DNA of 34,108 bases from an uncultured Clostridia bacterium (GTDB taxonomy: Bacteria > Bacillota > Clostridia > Christensenellales > CAG-314): contig CANRHP010000014.1 of NCBI GenBank assembly GCA_947630455.1, positions 1 through 34,108 on the forward strand, given 5' to 3'. The translations under genes and the position numbers were made by a program. The notes below the pieces were generated by a model, which saw only the letters and a list, made by a program, of their open reading frames with translations, was not told where the DNA came from and did not search any database. Of this stretch, positions 8,338 through 20,830 are shown piece after piece; the first letter of the stretch is position 1, and every line of letters starts with the position of its first letter.

Positions 8338-9369
8338 TCAGGAACGCGTCCACTCGAAATCAAACGCTGTAAAAAACCATGCGTTTTGGATGGGGTCTGT
8401 GAGCGACAAAAGGCTACCACCGAAAGAGAAAATACCATCTGACCGCCAACCGTAGGGATTTTCAAACGTGATGCTTTGCAAACCGCTGCAATTCCTGAAA
8501 GCATTCATGCCTATACTTGTCACGTTGCGCGGAATTGTAATTGATGGCAAACTACTGCAAGATGAGAAAGCCCATCTGCCTATGCTTTGCAGTTGGCTGT
8601 CTCCTTCAAATATCACTGTTTGCAGACCACTGCAACCGGAGAAAGCATACTCACCTATGATTGTAACGCTACTCGGAATGATTATCGATGTCAAACTGCT
8701 GCAACCTGCGAAAGCCGAATTGCCTATGCTTGTGACACTGCTCGAAATTGAGATGGATGTCAGATCGCTGCAACCACGGAAAACCTCATAGCCCATGTTT
8801 GTGACTCCGCTCGGAATCGTGATTGATGTCAGACTTTCACAACTTCCAAAAGCACGGTTGCCTATGCTTTGCAGTTGACTGTCTTCTTCAAATGCCACTG
8901 TTTGCAAATTGTAGCAATTGAAGAAAGCACTCTCGCCTATGCTCGTGACGCTACTCGGAATGGTAATAGACGTAAGACTACTGCAATATTCGAAAGCATT
9001 ATTGCTTATGCGGGTGACGGGCAAGCCTTTGTAATAGGAGAATATAACAACATTGCCTGTCGCATTTTTAGATTTTGACACATAGTAGCTTTGTCCATCG
9101 TTGGAAAGAGTGTATATCACGCCTTGCGTAAAGGAGTATCCGCATATTTCACAGTTGTCGCCGTCGCCAATGTGCAAAGCAACGTCCGATCTCAAATCAT
9201 GTCCGCATATAGCGTCGTGCCAATGTTCAGAGTCATTCCAACTCCAAAAAACGGAAAATGTGTGATTATGAGGTTCGGGTTTTTCTTCATCGCATGCTGT
9301 GAGTATAATAGCCGCGAGCAAAATTGTTGCAGCCAGTATTGCAACCAAAAGTAATCGTTTTGTTTTCAT
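8338..9369 (-). CDS. BspA-like leucine-rich-repeat lipoprotein
   Basis: Signal peptide with lipobox (IILTAC), repeated SLTSITIPSSVTSIGESAFxNCxxL units; AAGGAGAAATATT-ATG start context. Confidence 0.85.
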   Translation of the reverse strand: MKTKRLLLVAILAATILLAAIILTACDEEKPEPHNHTFSVFWSWNDSEHWHDAICGHDLRSDVALHIGDGDNCEICGYSFTQGVIYTLSNDGQSYYVSKSKNATGNVVIFSYYKGLPVTRISNNAFEYCSSLTSITIPSSVTSIGESAFFNCYNLQTVAFEEDSQLQSIGNRAFGSCESLTSITIPSGVTNMGYEVFRGCSDLTSISISSSVTSIGNSAFAGCSSLTSIIIPSSVTIIGEYAFSGCSGLQTVIFEGDSQLQSIGRWAFSSCSSLPSITIPRNVTSIGMNAFRNCSGLQSITFENPYGWRSDGIFSFGGSLLSLTDPIQNAWFFTAFDFEWTRS

Positions 9370-9787: not shown

Positions 9788-12154
9788 TCAAGAAATCCGC
9801 TTGAAATGATAATGTCTGAAAGAACTATGTAGAAAACTATCTATTGAAGATGATAATTTTGTACTATCGGTTACACCGCTAAACTTTTCTGTATATTCTA
9901 CACGTCCCGTCCCCCATATTGATTGAGAATCCCAATAAAAGCTCTCCCATTGGCTTGGTGCAGACTCGTATGCATCTTGAATAATCAAGCTTTGCAATCC
10001 GGAACATCCCTCAAAGCTGCCTTCACCAATCGCTACAACATCTGCTCCCAAAGTAATCTTTGTCAACATAGAACAGCCGTAAAACGCATTCACATCAAGA
10101 GCTCCGCTACGAACCGTTATCTCACGCAATGAATCGGGAATATAATAGTTATAATATAAGGTGTAGCTATAGATATCAAAAATACTTCCGGAGTTTACAG
10201 TAGTTAAATATTGCATGATTCCACCATCATTTTTCGTTCTACTTTCCTTCCATCCGAAAATATAACCGAATACACTATTATGAGCACCGTGAATCCCTGT
10301 AGAATTTGACTTTTTATACCCAACAAAAGGTAAATCCATAACAGTTAAAGATCTACACCCTTTAAAGGCTGCTGCTCCAATTTGTGTTACACTGTCAGGA
10401 ACAGCAATTTCTGTCAAATTACTACATTCCGAAAACGCGGAATCGCCGATGCGCTCCACACTGTTACCTATTGTTACGCTCGTAAAACCACTGCATCCAT
10501 AAAATGCTCGCGCACCGATGCTTGTCACACTTTCCGGAATCACTACACCTTTTAGTGCGGAGTTATTAAGAAATGCACTCTCTGCTATTTCTTTCACAGG
10601 TAATCCTAAATGTGAGAACGGAATGACAATTACTTCATCTCTACAACTACCACGACCCGACACAATATAATATTGTTGATTCGAACTCAATTCATATTCT
10701 AACCCTTCGCTAGGCTTTGGCGCTCCGCAGTTGCGACACTGTCCATCATCGCCGTAATCATGCTTTGGCTCCCCGTACTCAAAAGTGGTTTCACCTTTCG
10801 TGCCACAAACTGCGCAGGAGTAGTAATATGTTGCGGCTCTTGCGCATGTTGCCTCGGAAACCAAATACAGTTCCTCTACCTTCCGTTCTGTGAAGTTATG
10901 CTTTCCGGTCGGCTCTCCGTGCTCAAAAGTGGCTTCATCTTTCGCACCACAAACGGCGCAGGAGTAATAATACTTTGCAGGAGATACGCACGTTGCTTGA
11001 GACGCCAAATATTTCTCCTCTACCTTATGTTCGGTAAAGCTATGCTTTCCAGTCGGGTTACCGTGTTCAAATATTTCTGAACCTTTTTCCCCGCAAACCA
11101 CACAGGAATAATAATACTTCGCAGGAGAACCGCATGTTGCCTCGGATGCCAAATACAGTTCCTCTACCTTCCGTTCTGTAAAGGTATGTTTTCCGGTCGG
11201 CTCTCCGTTCTCAAAAGTGGTTTCACCTTTCGCACCGCAAACTGCGCAGGAGTAATAGTACTTTGCGGGAGATACGCACGTTGCTTGAGACGCCAAATAT
11301 TTCTCCTCTACCTTATGTTCGGTAAAGCTATGCTTTCCGGTCGGCTCTCCATGCTCAAAAATGGTTTCACCTTTCGCACCGCAAACCGCGCAGGAGTAAT
11401 AGTACTTTGCGGGAGATACGCATGTTGCCTCAGATGCCAGATACAGTTCCTCTACATTCTGTTCGGTAAAGCTGTGCTTTCCAGTCGGCTCTGTTCGGTC
11501 ATCCTCAAAAGTTGTTCTGCAAACCGTACAATTATAGACAGTATATCCTCCGGTTACACATGTAGCTGCTACTATGCGATCCACAGTAAATGCTGTGCAA
11601 TTTGCCTTGTTATGCACGACATTTTTTCCGGGACAACCTTTGGATGTTTCACCACTTCCGCTACTCTGACTTCCGGTTCCGCTGCCTTCACCTGTGCCAC
11701 CTGTACTGCCTCCGGGATTTCCACCTGTTGTGCCGCCCGGAGTTTGAGTTGTCCCGCTGCCGCCACCGATATCACCGCCAGGATTGTCTCCGGTGTTTCC
11801 GCCGGTGCCTTCACCTGTAGTGCCGCCGGCTCCCGTGCCTGTTCCTGTGCCAGTTCCCGTACCACTGCCGGTTCCACTGCCTGTACCGGTTCCACTGCCG
11901 GAGTTACCACCTGTACTGCCGCCAGTGTTTCCACTGGTTCCTGTGCCGCTGCCGGTTCCTGTGCCACTGCCTGTTCCCGTGCCACTGCCTGTTCCTGTGC
12001 CACTGCCTGTTCCTGTGCCACCAATACCACCGGTGCCTCCATCAGGATTGGGAGTAGTGGCACCGAATTTGTAAACAAATATCACTACCGCAGCAGCAAG
12101 CGCAAGCACCAACACTACTGCAAGGACAATGAGCCAAATGCGTTTTGTTTTCAT
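9788..12154 (-). CDS. Surface-exposed, N-terminally anchored multidomain protein: TM segment, Gly/Thr/Ser-rich stalk, five 48-aa Cys-containing repeats, BspA-like LRR domain
   Basis: N-terminal [32 protein letters not shown]; (GTGTGS)n stalk; repeated [51 protein letters not shown] units such as [43 protein letters not shown]. Confidence 0.85.
10774..11494 (-). repeat. Five tandem 144-bp (48-aa) coding repeats, alternating two subtypes
   Basis: Protein repeat [48 protein letters not shown]. Subtypes [14 protein letters not shown] and [14 protein letters not shown] alternate A-B-A-B-A. Confidence 0.85.
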
Positions 12155-12186
12155 AGTTATTTCTCCTTGTGTATAAAGTTCAGCAA

Positions 12187-12216
12187 CAAAAAAGTGCCGT
12201 TCTTGCGAAACGGCAC
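12187..12216 (-). terminator. Intrinsic terminator in the 5' leader of the 9788-12154 gene (leader RNA A)
   Basis: Minus strand GTGCCGTT-TCGCAAG-AACGGCAC-TTTTTTG, only ~30 nt upstream of the start codon. Confidence 0.85.
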
Positions 12217-12348
12217 CCGTAAAGCGCCTCTTCGCATAGTTGCGACACTAGTTTACAATATTATCCGAAAAAGGGATTATATGTTGCGAATAAGGTATGC
12301 TCTACCTAAGAGATACCCATTTCCGAATAATATTAAACTGTGTCGCAA
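12187..12348 (-). ncRNA. Candidate structured leader RNA A
   Basis: TTGCGACACAGTTTAATATTAT..CGGAAA pairs with TTTTTCGGATAATATTGTAAACTAGTGTCGCAA (about 29 pairs), enclosing a small branched domain and followed by a linker and terminator. Confidence 0.65.
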
Positions 12349-12352
12349 TTGT

Positions 12353-12381
12353 ATTGTACAATACGGCGGGGCAATTGTCAA
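12353..12381 (-). promoter_or_regulatory. Sigma-A-type promoter for leader RNA A
   Basis: Minus strand TTGACA-17 nt-TACAAT. Confidence 0.85.
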
Positions 12382-12478
12382 TAAATAAAATACAGACACT
12401 GCCCTGCACACTATTGTTAGCAGCAAATAACCTGTCGTGCGCAAACGCTATGCTAACACAACAGCCTTTTTTGAACAA

Positions 12479-12509
12479 CAAAAAAGTGCCGTCCCTACCG
12501 AAACGGCAC
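12479..12509 (-). terminator. Intrinsic terminator of leader RNA B
   Basis: Minus strand GTGCCGTT-TCGGTAGG-GACGGCAC-TTTTTTG. Confidence 0.85.
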
Positions 12510-12640
12510 TGTAGATGCGTGTCTCGATAGTTACCACACTATTACTTTCCAAAAACTTGCGCTATTGGGAATTGACACACTTATCTACCGATGAGATTGT
12601 GCACAAATTTTTGGAATATTAAAAGTAATAATGTGGTAGC
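12479..12640 (-). ncRNA. Candidate structured RNA B (orphan paralog of leader A, no ORF behind it)
   Basis: TACCACATTATTACTTT(TAATATT)CCAAAAA pairs with TTTTTGGAAAGTAATAGTGTGGTA. Same promoter-stem-linker-terminator layout as RNA A. Confidence 0.65.
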
Positions 12641-12643
12641 TAC

Positions 12644-12672
12644 ATTGTACTATATAGGTGGAAAAATGTCAA
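12644..12672 (-). promoter_or_regulatory. Sigma-A-type promoter for RNA B
   Basis: Minus strand TTGACA-17 nt-TACAAT. Confidence 0.85.
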
Positions 12673-12830
12673 GCAGTGCGCGAAGCGAAGCCATATTGTA
12701 GAGGACTGCCTCAATTTCCGCAACACACCGACCTTGCTCCATCGGGAGCGAGGGTGTTCGGTGCAAAACAATCTGCAACGAGCGTACACAGTACGCGAAG
12801 CGAAGCCGTTTTGCACCGAATACCCGAGCG
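12671..12830. repeat. Second locus of the 115-bp repeat (one full unit plus flanking partial)
   Basis: cgaagcgaagccatattgtagaggactgcctcaatttccgcaacacaccgaccttgctccatcgggagcgagggtgttcggtgcaaaacaatctgcaacgagcgtac.cagtacgcgaagcgaagccgttttgcaccgaatacccgagcg, nearly identical to 830-1078. aagcc at 12688 and 12803 (115 bp apart). Confidence 0.92.
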
Positions 12831-12831
12831 A

Positions 12832-13752
12832 CTATTCGTCGTGGTTCATTTCCGCAATTTGACGGCAGCGCTCAATGACGGCAAGGCGCAGCCGCTGAGG
12901 CTTTTCCACTCGCACACCGCTGCCGAGAGACAATATTTTGTTTACAAGCAACTCGTCATAGGGAAGAATCGCCTTGGCAAGAAAGCTCTCCCCCATTTTT
13001 GCAACGGCGCTGACGCCCAACCACTCTTCGCATGCGGAAAGCGCACCCGGGGCAACGGTAAGCAAAACCTCGCACATTTCCTTGCCCTTGAGCACGTCCG
13101 TCTTTATCACACTGCTGTCTACCCCGTCGAAGCTTCTGCCGCTGAATTTGTCTCCCACCTCCAGCCGAACTATGCGGGAGATCTTGAAATAGCGAAAATC
13201 CCTGCGCAAACGACAAAAGCTGTACACGTACCAAGCCCCGTCCTTGAGTATCAGACAATAGGGCTCGATGATACGCACCGAATCAACGCCGTCCTTGGAA
13301 TGGTACTCGATGTGACACAGCTTTTTTTGCGCTATGCAATCGGATATTGTGTTGACCAACTCGCCCAAAACACTGTCGCCGCCGTCCACGATAAGCTGTT
13401 CGCTCTTTAACACTGTTACGCCGGCATGCGTTCGGTTGAGACCCTGCAGCTTGGTGGTTACACGTTTGGTTACGTCGTCCTGCAATGTGGAGCTTTGTAA
13501 GCTGAAAATAAGACGCTCGTACTCCTCGGGAGTAAAGTAGGTGGCTTTGAGCTTGTAATTTTCCACTATACGCCAACCACCGCCACGCCCGAGACAGCTT
13601 TCAATCGGTACACCGCCCTCTGATAGCATAGACATATAGCGATAAACGGAGCGAACGGAAATTTCATATTTTTTTGCCAAGTCCTCCGCGCGCACAAGCC
13701 CGTCTGCAGAAAGCAGAGTGGACAGCATACCTACCAACACGGGAATTTGCAT
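12832..13752 (-). CDS. WYL-domain transcriptional regulator (HTH_11/DeoR-like, YafY family)
   Basis: N-terminal HTH (RAEDLAKKYEISVRSVYRYMSMLSEGGVPIESCLGRGGGWRI) and WYL core (IEPYCLILKDGAWYVYSFCRLRRDFRYFKISRI). Confidence 0.9.
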   Translation of the reverse strand: MQIPVLVGMLSTLLSADGLVRAEDLAKKYEISVRSVYRYMSMLSEGGVPIESCLGRGGGWRIVENYKLKATYFTPEEYERLIFSLQSSTLQDDVTKRVTTKLQGLNRTHAGVTVLKSEQLIVDGGDSVLGELVNTISDCIAQKKLCHIEYHSKDGVDSVRIIEPYCLILKDGAWYVYSFCRLRRDFRYFKISRIVRLEVGDKFSGRSFDGVDSSVIKTDVLKGKEMCEVLLTVAPGALSACEEWLGVSAVAKMGESFLAKAILPYDELLVNKILSLGSGVRVEKPQRLRLAVIERCRQIAEMNHDE

Positions 13753-19629: not shown

Positions 19630-20442
19630 TCAATCGTTTTGATCATCCGACGACGAGCCATGCTCTGCGTCGACGGGCGCAGGTACGGCTTGGGTCGATT
19701 TTTTTTTGCGGCGAGACGCGTCCATAGTCCAGTGCAGCGCGCGGCTGAGCGGTTTGTAGAGCAGAAATGTGATAACGCAGGTTGCCGCGGTTTTAATCAC
19801 ATTGAAAAGCAACGTCCACCATAACGCCGTCATCATTACGCTATGCTCGGTCATACCGTACACGGGCAGCAAAATAAATTGATTGCATAGCCACATAGCG
19901 CCGCAAAATACCAAGCTACTTACAAACAGACTGAGCACGGCGCCTCTTTTGTTGCGGCGAAGCTTGTAAATCAACCCTGCAACTACTGCATATACTGTGC
20001 CCGAAATCAAATTGGACAGCGGTCCGACCAAATTGGTGCTTGTACCGGAAATAAGCAGTTTTACCACAATTTTAACAATATTTACGGCAGCGCCGGTTAT
20101 CGGTCCATACATAAACGAAGCAAGCAGCGTTGGTACGTCGGAAAAATTCATTTCCAACCATGGAGTTGCAGGCAGCAGCGGAAATTCCAAATACAACAGC
20201 GCCACGCCCAGCGCAGAGAAAAACGCCACATGCGCCAGATAAATCGCAGAATGTACGGTTGTATCTCGTTTGGAAAATCTTGCGGTTGGCGCATGACCTG
20301 CGGACGCGGAATTTTTGGCGGCTCGTATTTTTCGTAAAGAGACGATCTGCCATATGATAATGCCAACCTCAAGAGCTACGACTATACCTAAAATTGTGCC
20401 GACCAATGCGTCGACCTGATTGAAACACAACAAGCTTGTCAC
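19630..20442 (-). CDS. ribU: ECF transporter S component, riboflavin (RibU-like)
   Basis: Multi-TM; FFSALGVALLYLEFPLLPATPWLEMNFSDVPTLLASFMYGPITGAAVNIVKIVVKLLISGTST; preceded by an FMN riboswitch. Start refined to GTG at 20442 (AAGGAGG-TATCTTTT-GTG). Confidence 0.88.
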   Translation of the reverse strand: MTSLLCFNQVDALVGTILGIVVALEVGIIIWQIVSLRKIRAAKNSASAGHAPTARFSKRDTTVHSAIYLAHVAFFSALGVALLYLEFPLLPATPWLEMNFSDVPTLLASFMYGPITGAAVNIVKIVVKLLISGTSTNLVGPLSNLISGTVYAVVAGLIYKLRRNKRGAVLSLFVSSLVFCGAMWLCNQFILLPVYGMTEHSVMMTALWWTLLFNVIKTAATCVITFLLYKPLSRALHWTMDASRRKKKSTQAVPAPVDAEHGSSSDDQND

Positions 20443-20543
20443 AAAAGATACCTCCTTTATTTGTTTTAAGCGACGTATCCAAGGAACGTTTCCCCAAAGT
20501 ATCCCGCACCGACGTATATACGCAACATATTGCAGCGTAAAAA

Positions 20544-20573
20544 CAAAAAACGCCCGCGGAGATCCTCCGGGGC
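20544..20573 (-). terminator. Riboswitch expression-platform terminator
   Basis: Minus strand GCCCCGGAG-GAT-CTCCGCGGGC-GTTTTTTG between the FMN aptamer and the ribU start. Confidence 0.8.
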
Positions 20574-20593
20574 ACAATACACAAAGTATTTCA

Positions 20594-20717
20594 TTCTTTT
20601 CTCATCCGGACTGTACCGTCGGCTCGGGAATTTCACCCGCTCGGCGCCGCCTGCATGCAGGAAGCGTTCATAGGCTTTCACTATCGGTGTGGAATTGCAC
20701 CACGCCCCAAAGAATTT
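20594..20717 (-). promoter_or_regulatory. FMN riboswitch (RFN element)
   Basis: Minus strand TTCTTTGGGGCGTGGTGCAATTCCACACCGATAGTGAAAGCC...GAGCGGGTGAAATTCCCGAGCCGACGGTACAGTCCGGATGAGAA matches the conserved RFN core. Confidence 0.96.
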
Positions 20718-20830
20718 GTTGTTGTAATTATATTTTAGCACTGAAATATAGATTGCGCAACCGTTTGAATACAAATTTTGCAAAACGTGGTTCGGCAATG
20801 GAAGCTTAAGCTTGCAAAACACCGACTTAA

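Follow-up and report, generated by a model that had tools for sequence, protein, structure and literature searches.

Tandem 5' Leaders Ahead of a Surface Protein Gene Belong to a Family of Putative Transcription-Attenuating RNAs in Clostridia

Results

The window (the whole stretch of DNA analyzed, 34,108 nucleotides of contig CANRHP010000014.1, assembly GCA_947630455.1, from an uncultured Clostridia bacterium) carries two neighboring genes for BspA-type leucine-rich repeat (LRR) proteins on its minus strand. The one encoding the 788-residue protein is the only one of the two found to carry a unit-type leader, as determined with covariance model R2 (below). The features of the locus and its surroundings are collected in Table 1. 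Unit B is followed directly by the promoter of unit A with no gene in between, and the T run of unit A is followed by an AAGGAG Shine-Dalgarno (SD) sequence (12168-12163) and the ATG (12154) of the LRR protein. The initial annotation had described two minus-strand units, each with a TTGACA-17-TACAAT promoter, a long closing stem, and a terminator with a T run, the second of them just ahead of the LRR gene. All of these features were located as described. The closing stem of unit B consists of 16 + 15 bp with a 7-nt bulge in between, and that of unit A of 8 + 6 + 14 + 3 bp. The predicted folding energies of units B and A are -65.9 kcal/mol (z -8.9) and -62.6 kcal/mol (z -7.4), respectively, and neither was equaled by any dinucleotide shuffle. 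A gene for an HTH-WYL transcriptional regulator lies directly upstream of the tandem leaders. An intergenic repeat of ~115 nt occurs in tandem near the start of the window and as a single copy immediately upstream of the unit B promoter, and its copies are 67-94% alike.

Table 1. Positions of the leader units, their parts, and the surrounding features in the window
Feature	Position	Strand	Basis or detail
Promoter of unit B	12644..12672	-	TTGACA-17-TACAAT, from sequence
Unit B promoter boxes	-35: 12672-12667; -10: 12649-12644	-	spacer 17 nt
Predicted unit B transcription start	near 12637	-	first bases of closing stem
Unit B leader RNA, B type	12478..12639	-	fold and covariance-model matches
Unit B closing stem	12532..12638	-	fold; covariation in relatives
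Unit B P1	12638-12623 with 12547-12532	-
Unit B AU-rich bulge	12622-12616	-
Unit B P2	12615-12601 with 12562-12548	-
Unit B apical pseudoknot strand	12574..12589	-	GGUAGAUAAGUGUGUC; partner is linker 12523-12511, -16.1 kcal/mol
Unit B linker	12511..12530	-	CUAUCGAGACACGCAUCUAC; duplex energies, swap tests
Unit B linker strands	antiterminator 12530-12521; pseudoknot 12523-12511	-	overlapping
Unit B terminator hairpin	12485..12510	-	12510-12502 with 12493-12485, T run after
Unit B antiterminator partner	12504-12495	-	GUUUCGGUAG; inside terminator region
Promoter of unit A	12353..12381	-	TTGACA-17-TACAAT, from sequence
Unit A promoter boxes	-35: 12381-12376; -10: 12358-12353	-	spacer 17 nt
Unit A leader RNA, A type	12186..12348	-	fold and covariance-model matches
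Unit A apical pseudoknot strand	12285..12306	-	GGUAGAGCAUACCUUAUUCGCA; partner is linker 12236-12219, -20.6 kcal/mol
Unit A linker	12219..12236	-	UGCGAAGAGGCGCUUUAC; antiterminator strand 12236-12224, pseudoknot strand 12236-12219
Unit A terminator hairpin	12194..12216	-	12216-12209 with 12201-12194, T run after
Unit A antiterminator partner	12216-12204	-	overlaps terminator hairpin
Gene downstream of unit A, 788-aa BspA-type LRR surface protein	9788..12154	-	Pfam LRR_5, E 5.6e-33
Neighboring BspA-type LRR protein gene	8338-9369	-
HTH-WYL transcriptional regulator gene	12832-13752	-
Intergenic repeat, ~115 nt, tandem	747-1091
Intergenic repeat, ~115 nt, single	12673-12843
FMN riboswitch	20590-20718	-	101 bits
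ECF-transporter S component gene	19630-20577

Neither unit was found to belong to a known RNA class, in agreement with the initial annotation. Using Rfam 15 with a covariance-model score at or above the family gathering score as the criterion, no family matched A or B (T-box, SAM, FMN, cobalamin, c-di-GMP-I/II, preQ1, ZTP, and fluoride included), and a permissive search of the A/B region with E up to 10 returned noise only. The order-level and class-level relatives gave no Rfam match either. The sole Rfam match in the window is the FMN riboswitch, which lies directly upstream of the gene for an ECF-transporter S component, probably a riboflavin transporter. The units resemble 6S RNA (RF00013) in their long closing stem, a length of about 160-190 nt, and the occasional presence of two copies. 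They differ from it in being leaders, and the only RF00013 match of the genome lies elsewhere (C2:88605-88811, 40.1 bits). The searchable text of the RNA-motif literature (PMC8040213, PMC11109978, PMC8632094, and others) contained no description of the units; supplementary motif lists may hold an unnamed entry.

Relatives of the units were found by three kinds of search. Copies were detected by blastn in 15 of 25 genomes of the genus, with the linker and terminator as the most conserved parts. A pattern scan of genome contigs returned 30 stretches, chiefly from rabbit-gut and rumen MAGs, every record being titled Clostridia or Clostridiales. Covariance model R1 was built from 25 B-type units, window B included, and R2 from 39 diverse units; the E-values of both are rough because the calibration was short. 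R1, which contains nested pairs only, scored window B at 157.8 bits (E 3e-33, with window B itself in the training set) and yielded matches in 19 of the 25 genus genomes and in other families of the order. The corresponding R2 scores were 131.9 bits for window B and 110.7 bits for window A. Since R1 was trained on B units only and detects A-type units at E about 1e-9 (window A, 3e-10), the A and B types are homologous, and the two units of the window are a tandem pair of homologous, predicted 5' leaders. The initial annotation had stated that their stems differ completely; the structure is indeed kept, but the two stems are not unrelated.

R2 matched 139 of 396 sampled genomes (49 of 142 genera) at the order level and 77 of 290 (49 of 181 genera) at the class level. 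Among 300 genomes drawn from the whole phylum, a good specificity control for this search, the sole match was the genome of the window. When more candidates were scored, single genomes were found to contain 20, 14, 12, and 12 copies. From these sequence comparisons the units apparently constitute a large, multi-copy, and undescribed RNA family in Clostridia. The genome of the window holds four units, of which the diverged fourth (L231, G000:C40:405-594, plus strand, 56 bits) precedes a 276-residue protein whose start resembles those of the proteins behind L057, L145, and L146, and so represents a recurring family of targets. Tandem leaders with a promoter each, as at window positions 12186-12672, also occur at L020, L021, L074, L168, and L214, and at L022 (3018-3684) three leaders of the B, a third, and the A type stand in a row ahead of one gene.

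The order of parts is P1, bulge, P2, apical region, P2', P1', linker, terminator with T run, and SD-ORF. In an RNAalifold analysis of a MAFFT alignment of the B units, stem P2 was lost through register shifts, and covariance-model alignments were therefore adopted. Across 95 aligned units, 31 of the 32 nested pairs covary, with 1068 double-change cells versus 114-200 in slid controls, in an alignment fitted to these pairs. For the 38 close B-like units the count is 234 versus at most 45. The sequence of P2 is free, and P1 keeps its identity in places (A6-U226, 100%; U224, 98%; G223, 99%). The bulge is AU-rich, often AAUA, and lies on the 5' side only. Few unpaired positions reach 80% conservation: A18 and A20 of the bulge (the bulge A's being kept at about 81%), G73, G74, A230, and C233 (100%). 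A -10 box is found just upstream in 93 of the 95 units, versus 17 of 95 at random positions, and in 84 of 95 it ends exactly 4 nt upstream of the model start. Because this register is fixed, the transcript should begin with the opening bases of the closing stem.

Two further pairings, absent from all models used for alignment, involve the linker. In the putative pseudoknot the apical strand pairs with the linker (GGUAGAUAAGUGUGUC with GACACGCAUCUAC in unit B), and in the putative antiterminator the 5' part of the linker pairs with the 5' arm and loop of the terminator (CUAUCGAGAC with GUUUCGGUAG in unit B; UGCGAAGAGGCGC with GUGCCGUUUCGCA in unit A). Among the B-like units 93.7% of the pseudoknot cells pair, versus at most 66% when slid, and a column-wise count gave a modest 22 double-change cells versus 10.9 shuffled; the sequence itself is free to drift among units. 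The antiterminator pairs are nearly invariant within the genus and show no covariation there on their own, so their comparative support comes from the wider family, where both strands change together: CAUUCG/CGAAUG (L128), CUAAGCGAUA/UAUCGUUUAG (L133), and CAAUCGG/CCGAUUG (L160). In a few copies, such as L054, the loop no longer contains most of the antiterminator complement.

Column-wise counting of the pseudoknot across the class is blurred by indels, and a swap test that is independent of alignment columns was used instead. Duplex energies of cognate and swapped partners were compared for 51 non-redundant units. The apical strand and linker gave -17.7 kcal/mol for cognate versus -11.6 kcal/mol for swapped partners (z -13.8), and the linker and terminator -17.1 versus -10.5 kcal/mol (z -15.0). 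The permutation p of 5e-5 for both pairings is the permutation floor, and is not exact because the units have common ancestry. The apical strand and terminator, used as the control, gave -8.4 versus -8.2 kcal/mol (z -0.6), and this flat result argues against a compositional cause. The outcome was the same in a 25-unit test with an independent segmentation, in which a few units were mis-segmented. The swap test thus shows both predicted pairings to be cognate-specific.

When the RNA was ended before the 3' arm of the terminator, the antiterminator fold was predicted for 51 of 51 units, at -16.4 kcal/mol versus -7.8 kcal/mol with a shuffled linker. The calculated energies of the pseudoknot, antiterminator, and terminator of unit B are -16.1, -16.6, and -17.8 kcal/mol, respectively, and those of the pseudoknot and antiterminator of unit A are -20.6 and -20.0 kcal/mol. 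Such near-balanced alternatives are as expected of a switch. The pseudoknot and antiterminator are mutually exclusive because their linker strands overlap in sequence. Judged from the geometry, the antiterminator and terminator should exclude each other as well, since they share bases of the 5' arm and the antiterminator partner ends a few nucleotides from the 3' arm.

An ORF with an SD sequence was found within 300 nt of 75 of the 95 units, and within 60 nt on the same strand for 61, with a median gap of 19 nt from the T run to the start of the SD-ORF. For the other 20, no ORF qualified within 300 nt; some of these are upstream members of tandems and some lie near contig ends. Among 68 downstream proteins from the order and nearby, 29 are BspA-type LRR proteins, 13 contain List_Bact (InlB-type) repeats, and about 11 contain zinc ribbons. 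The 45 from the class-level set include 9 with LRR_5 and 5 with Cu_amine_oxidN1, along with peptidase M23, CHAP, lectin, and GDSL domains. The N-termini, judged by eye, are often lipoprotein-like or signal-peptide-like. The predicted targets are thus mainly BspA-type LRR proteins and other secreted or lipoproteins.

At L034, L037, L047, L053, L054, L074, and L139, a second promoter lies between leader and gene, just past the terminator, and its -35 and -10 boxes are separated by a spacer of about 15-18 nt that contains 8-10 consecutive G. This arrangement looks like slipped-strand phase variation of those surface-protein genes.

Discussion

Comparison of the sequences shows, for the predicted RNA, its stems, pseudoknot, antiterminator, terminator, promoter register, and position ahead of a start codon. 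We consider it very probable that the units are leaders that act in cis to attenuate transcription, each with a promoter of its own and a switch between pseudoknot and antiterminator. The RNA, which is presumably expressed, would begin at the first base of the long closing stem. The large apical loop of this stem would present the pseudoknot strand to the linker, which follows the stem and has two mutually exclusive partners. The pseudoknot, formed first, would occupy the linker, the intrinsic terminator would form, and transcription would stop. If the pseudoknot were prevented, the linker would bind the 5' arm and loop of the terminator as the antiterminator, no terminator would form, and RNA polymerase would continue into the gene lying 20-50 nt further on, which in most cases encodes a secreted or surface protein. 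Within the window, a pair of these leaders would act in tandem ahead of the LRR protein. We infer that the pseudoknot corresponds to the off state and the antiterminator to read-through, and that an effector (a metabolite, a protein, or a physical signal) biases the choice between them.

From two copies, the initial annotation had proposed a leader that attenuates transcription, and had recognized no known RNA class in it. The proposal is supported by the present 95 aligned relatives, for which covariation, specificity, start codons, and antiterminator agree; the pseudoknot and antiterminator had been overlooked, and it is because of these two pairings that a hairpin plus terminator now reads as a switch.

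It is not at all likely that the units are instead free small RNAs, always terminated, that act in trans through their loops and lie near genes by chance. The promoter and terminator of each unit, the many copies, and the 20 units lacking a nearby SD-ORF would suit such RNAs, but the competition between antiterminator and terminator appears to be under selection, which would be pointless if transcription always ended there, and a same-strand SD sequence and start codon follow at a median of 19 nt past the T run. That the units are mobile or REP-like repeats, or hairpins acting at the DNA level, is hardly credible; many copies and inverted repeats are what would suggest this, whereas structure is kept rather than sequence, the promoter register is fixed, the copies point into genes, and searches of phage and plasmid records and of viral contigs gave no match. 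Cyclic-di-GMP riboswitches regulate surface proteins in other Clostridia, and a cyclic-di-GMP or other known riboswitch that had diverged past Rfam detection would fit the targets. We regard this as very improbable in view of the Rfam noise and of the lack of GGDEF proteins in the genome of the window and in most genus genomes with 5-7 copies. None was found in the window's genome (G000), G005, G006, G008, G031, or G032, each with 3-7 copies, which with the Rfam result makes c-di-GMP unlikely as the signal. An attenuator based on a leader peptide was rejected as well: a short SD-ORF inside the leader was found in just 15 of the 95 units under a lenient rule and is not conserved.

The nature of the signal divides the remaining explanations. 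Few unpaired bases of the units are conserved above 80%, unlike those of most metabolite aptamers, which counts somewhat against the main reading; this low conservation and the wide assortment of target genes are no less compatible with a protein or a general signal than with a classical metabolite. An attenuator worked not by a small molecule but by an RNA-binding protein that contacts P1, the AU-rich bulge, or the apical hairpin is a possibility that we entertain tentatively. The retained P1 identities and bulge A's, set against the drifting pseudoknot, and the diversity of the targets speak for it. However, there is no candidate protein. LoaP-dependent antitermination is alike in that a leader RNA hairpin governs read-through of clostridial genes, but no LoaP exceeded the curated cut-off in 15 genomes rich in the RNA, where only NusG-like matches below the cut-off were found, as in control genomes. 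A ligand-free sensor of temperature, Mg2+, NTP level, or polymerase speed is unlikely. It would exploit the fact that pseudoknot and antiterminator are nearly equal in energy, as they are in A, in B, and in the mean of 51 units, yet unit by unit these energies vary and are uncorrelated (r 0.03), and the geometry of a pseudoknot lies outside nearest-neighbor energies.

We return to the cis-acting attenuator. Like riboswitches, the units are positioned in cis in a 5' leader and, from the swap tests and the folds of shortened RNAs, appear to have an expression platform with mutually exclusive structures. We call the RNA family new and its kind already known: an attenuating leader, similar to pseudoknot riboswitches whose expression platform is a terminator. 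As in preQ1-I and other H-type pseudoknot riboswitches (fluoride, ZTP), pairing of a hairpin loop with a downstream strand would set antiterminator against terminator; those aptamers, however, are small with a conserved ligand core, whereas the units have a ~30-bp stem, a pseudoknot of drifting sequence, and no Rfam match. T-box leaders are likewise Gram-positive 5' leaders with exclusive antiterminator and terminator and many copies per genome, but they target amino-acid genes rather than surface proteins, no T-box match was obtained, and the antiterminator strand of the units pairs with the terminator loop in addition to the 5' arm.

On balance we lean, if only slightly, toward an undescribed class of effector-controlled RNA switch that occurs across many clostridial families, can reach ~20 copies in one genome, and would place surface proteins in a regulon of one signal. 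Tandem copies with their own promoters would allow signal integration at a single gene, and the poly-G promoters would add phase variation. If this is true, the copy number of up to 20 would, to our knowledge, make the RNA among the most reused attenuators per genome, and further study could draw on a covariance model and on dozens of natural variants in each clade, with a three-state mechanism that can be tested and an orphan-ligand problem to solve. A common group of gut Clostridia would then run much of its surface, including BspA-like LRR, InlB-repeat, and other secreted proteins, through an RNA switch that is missing from Rfam.
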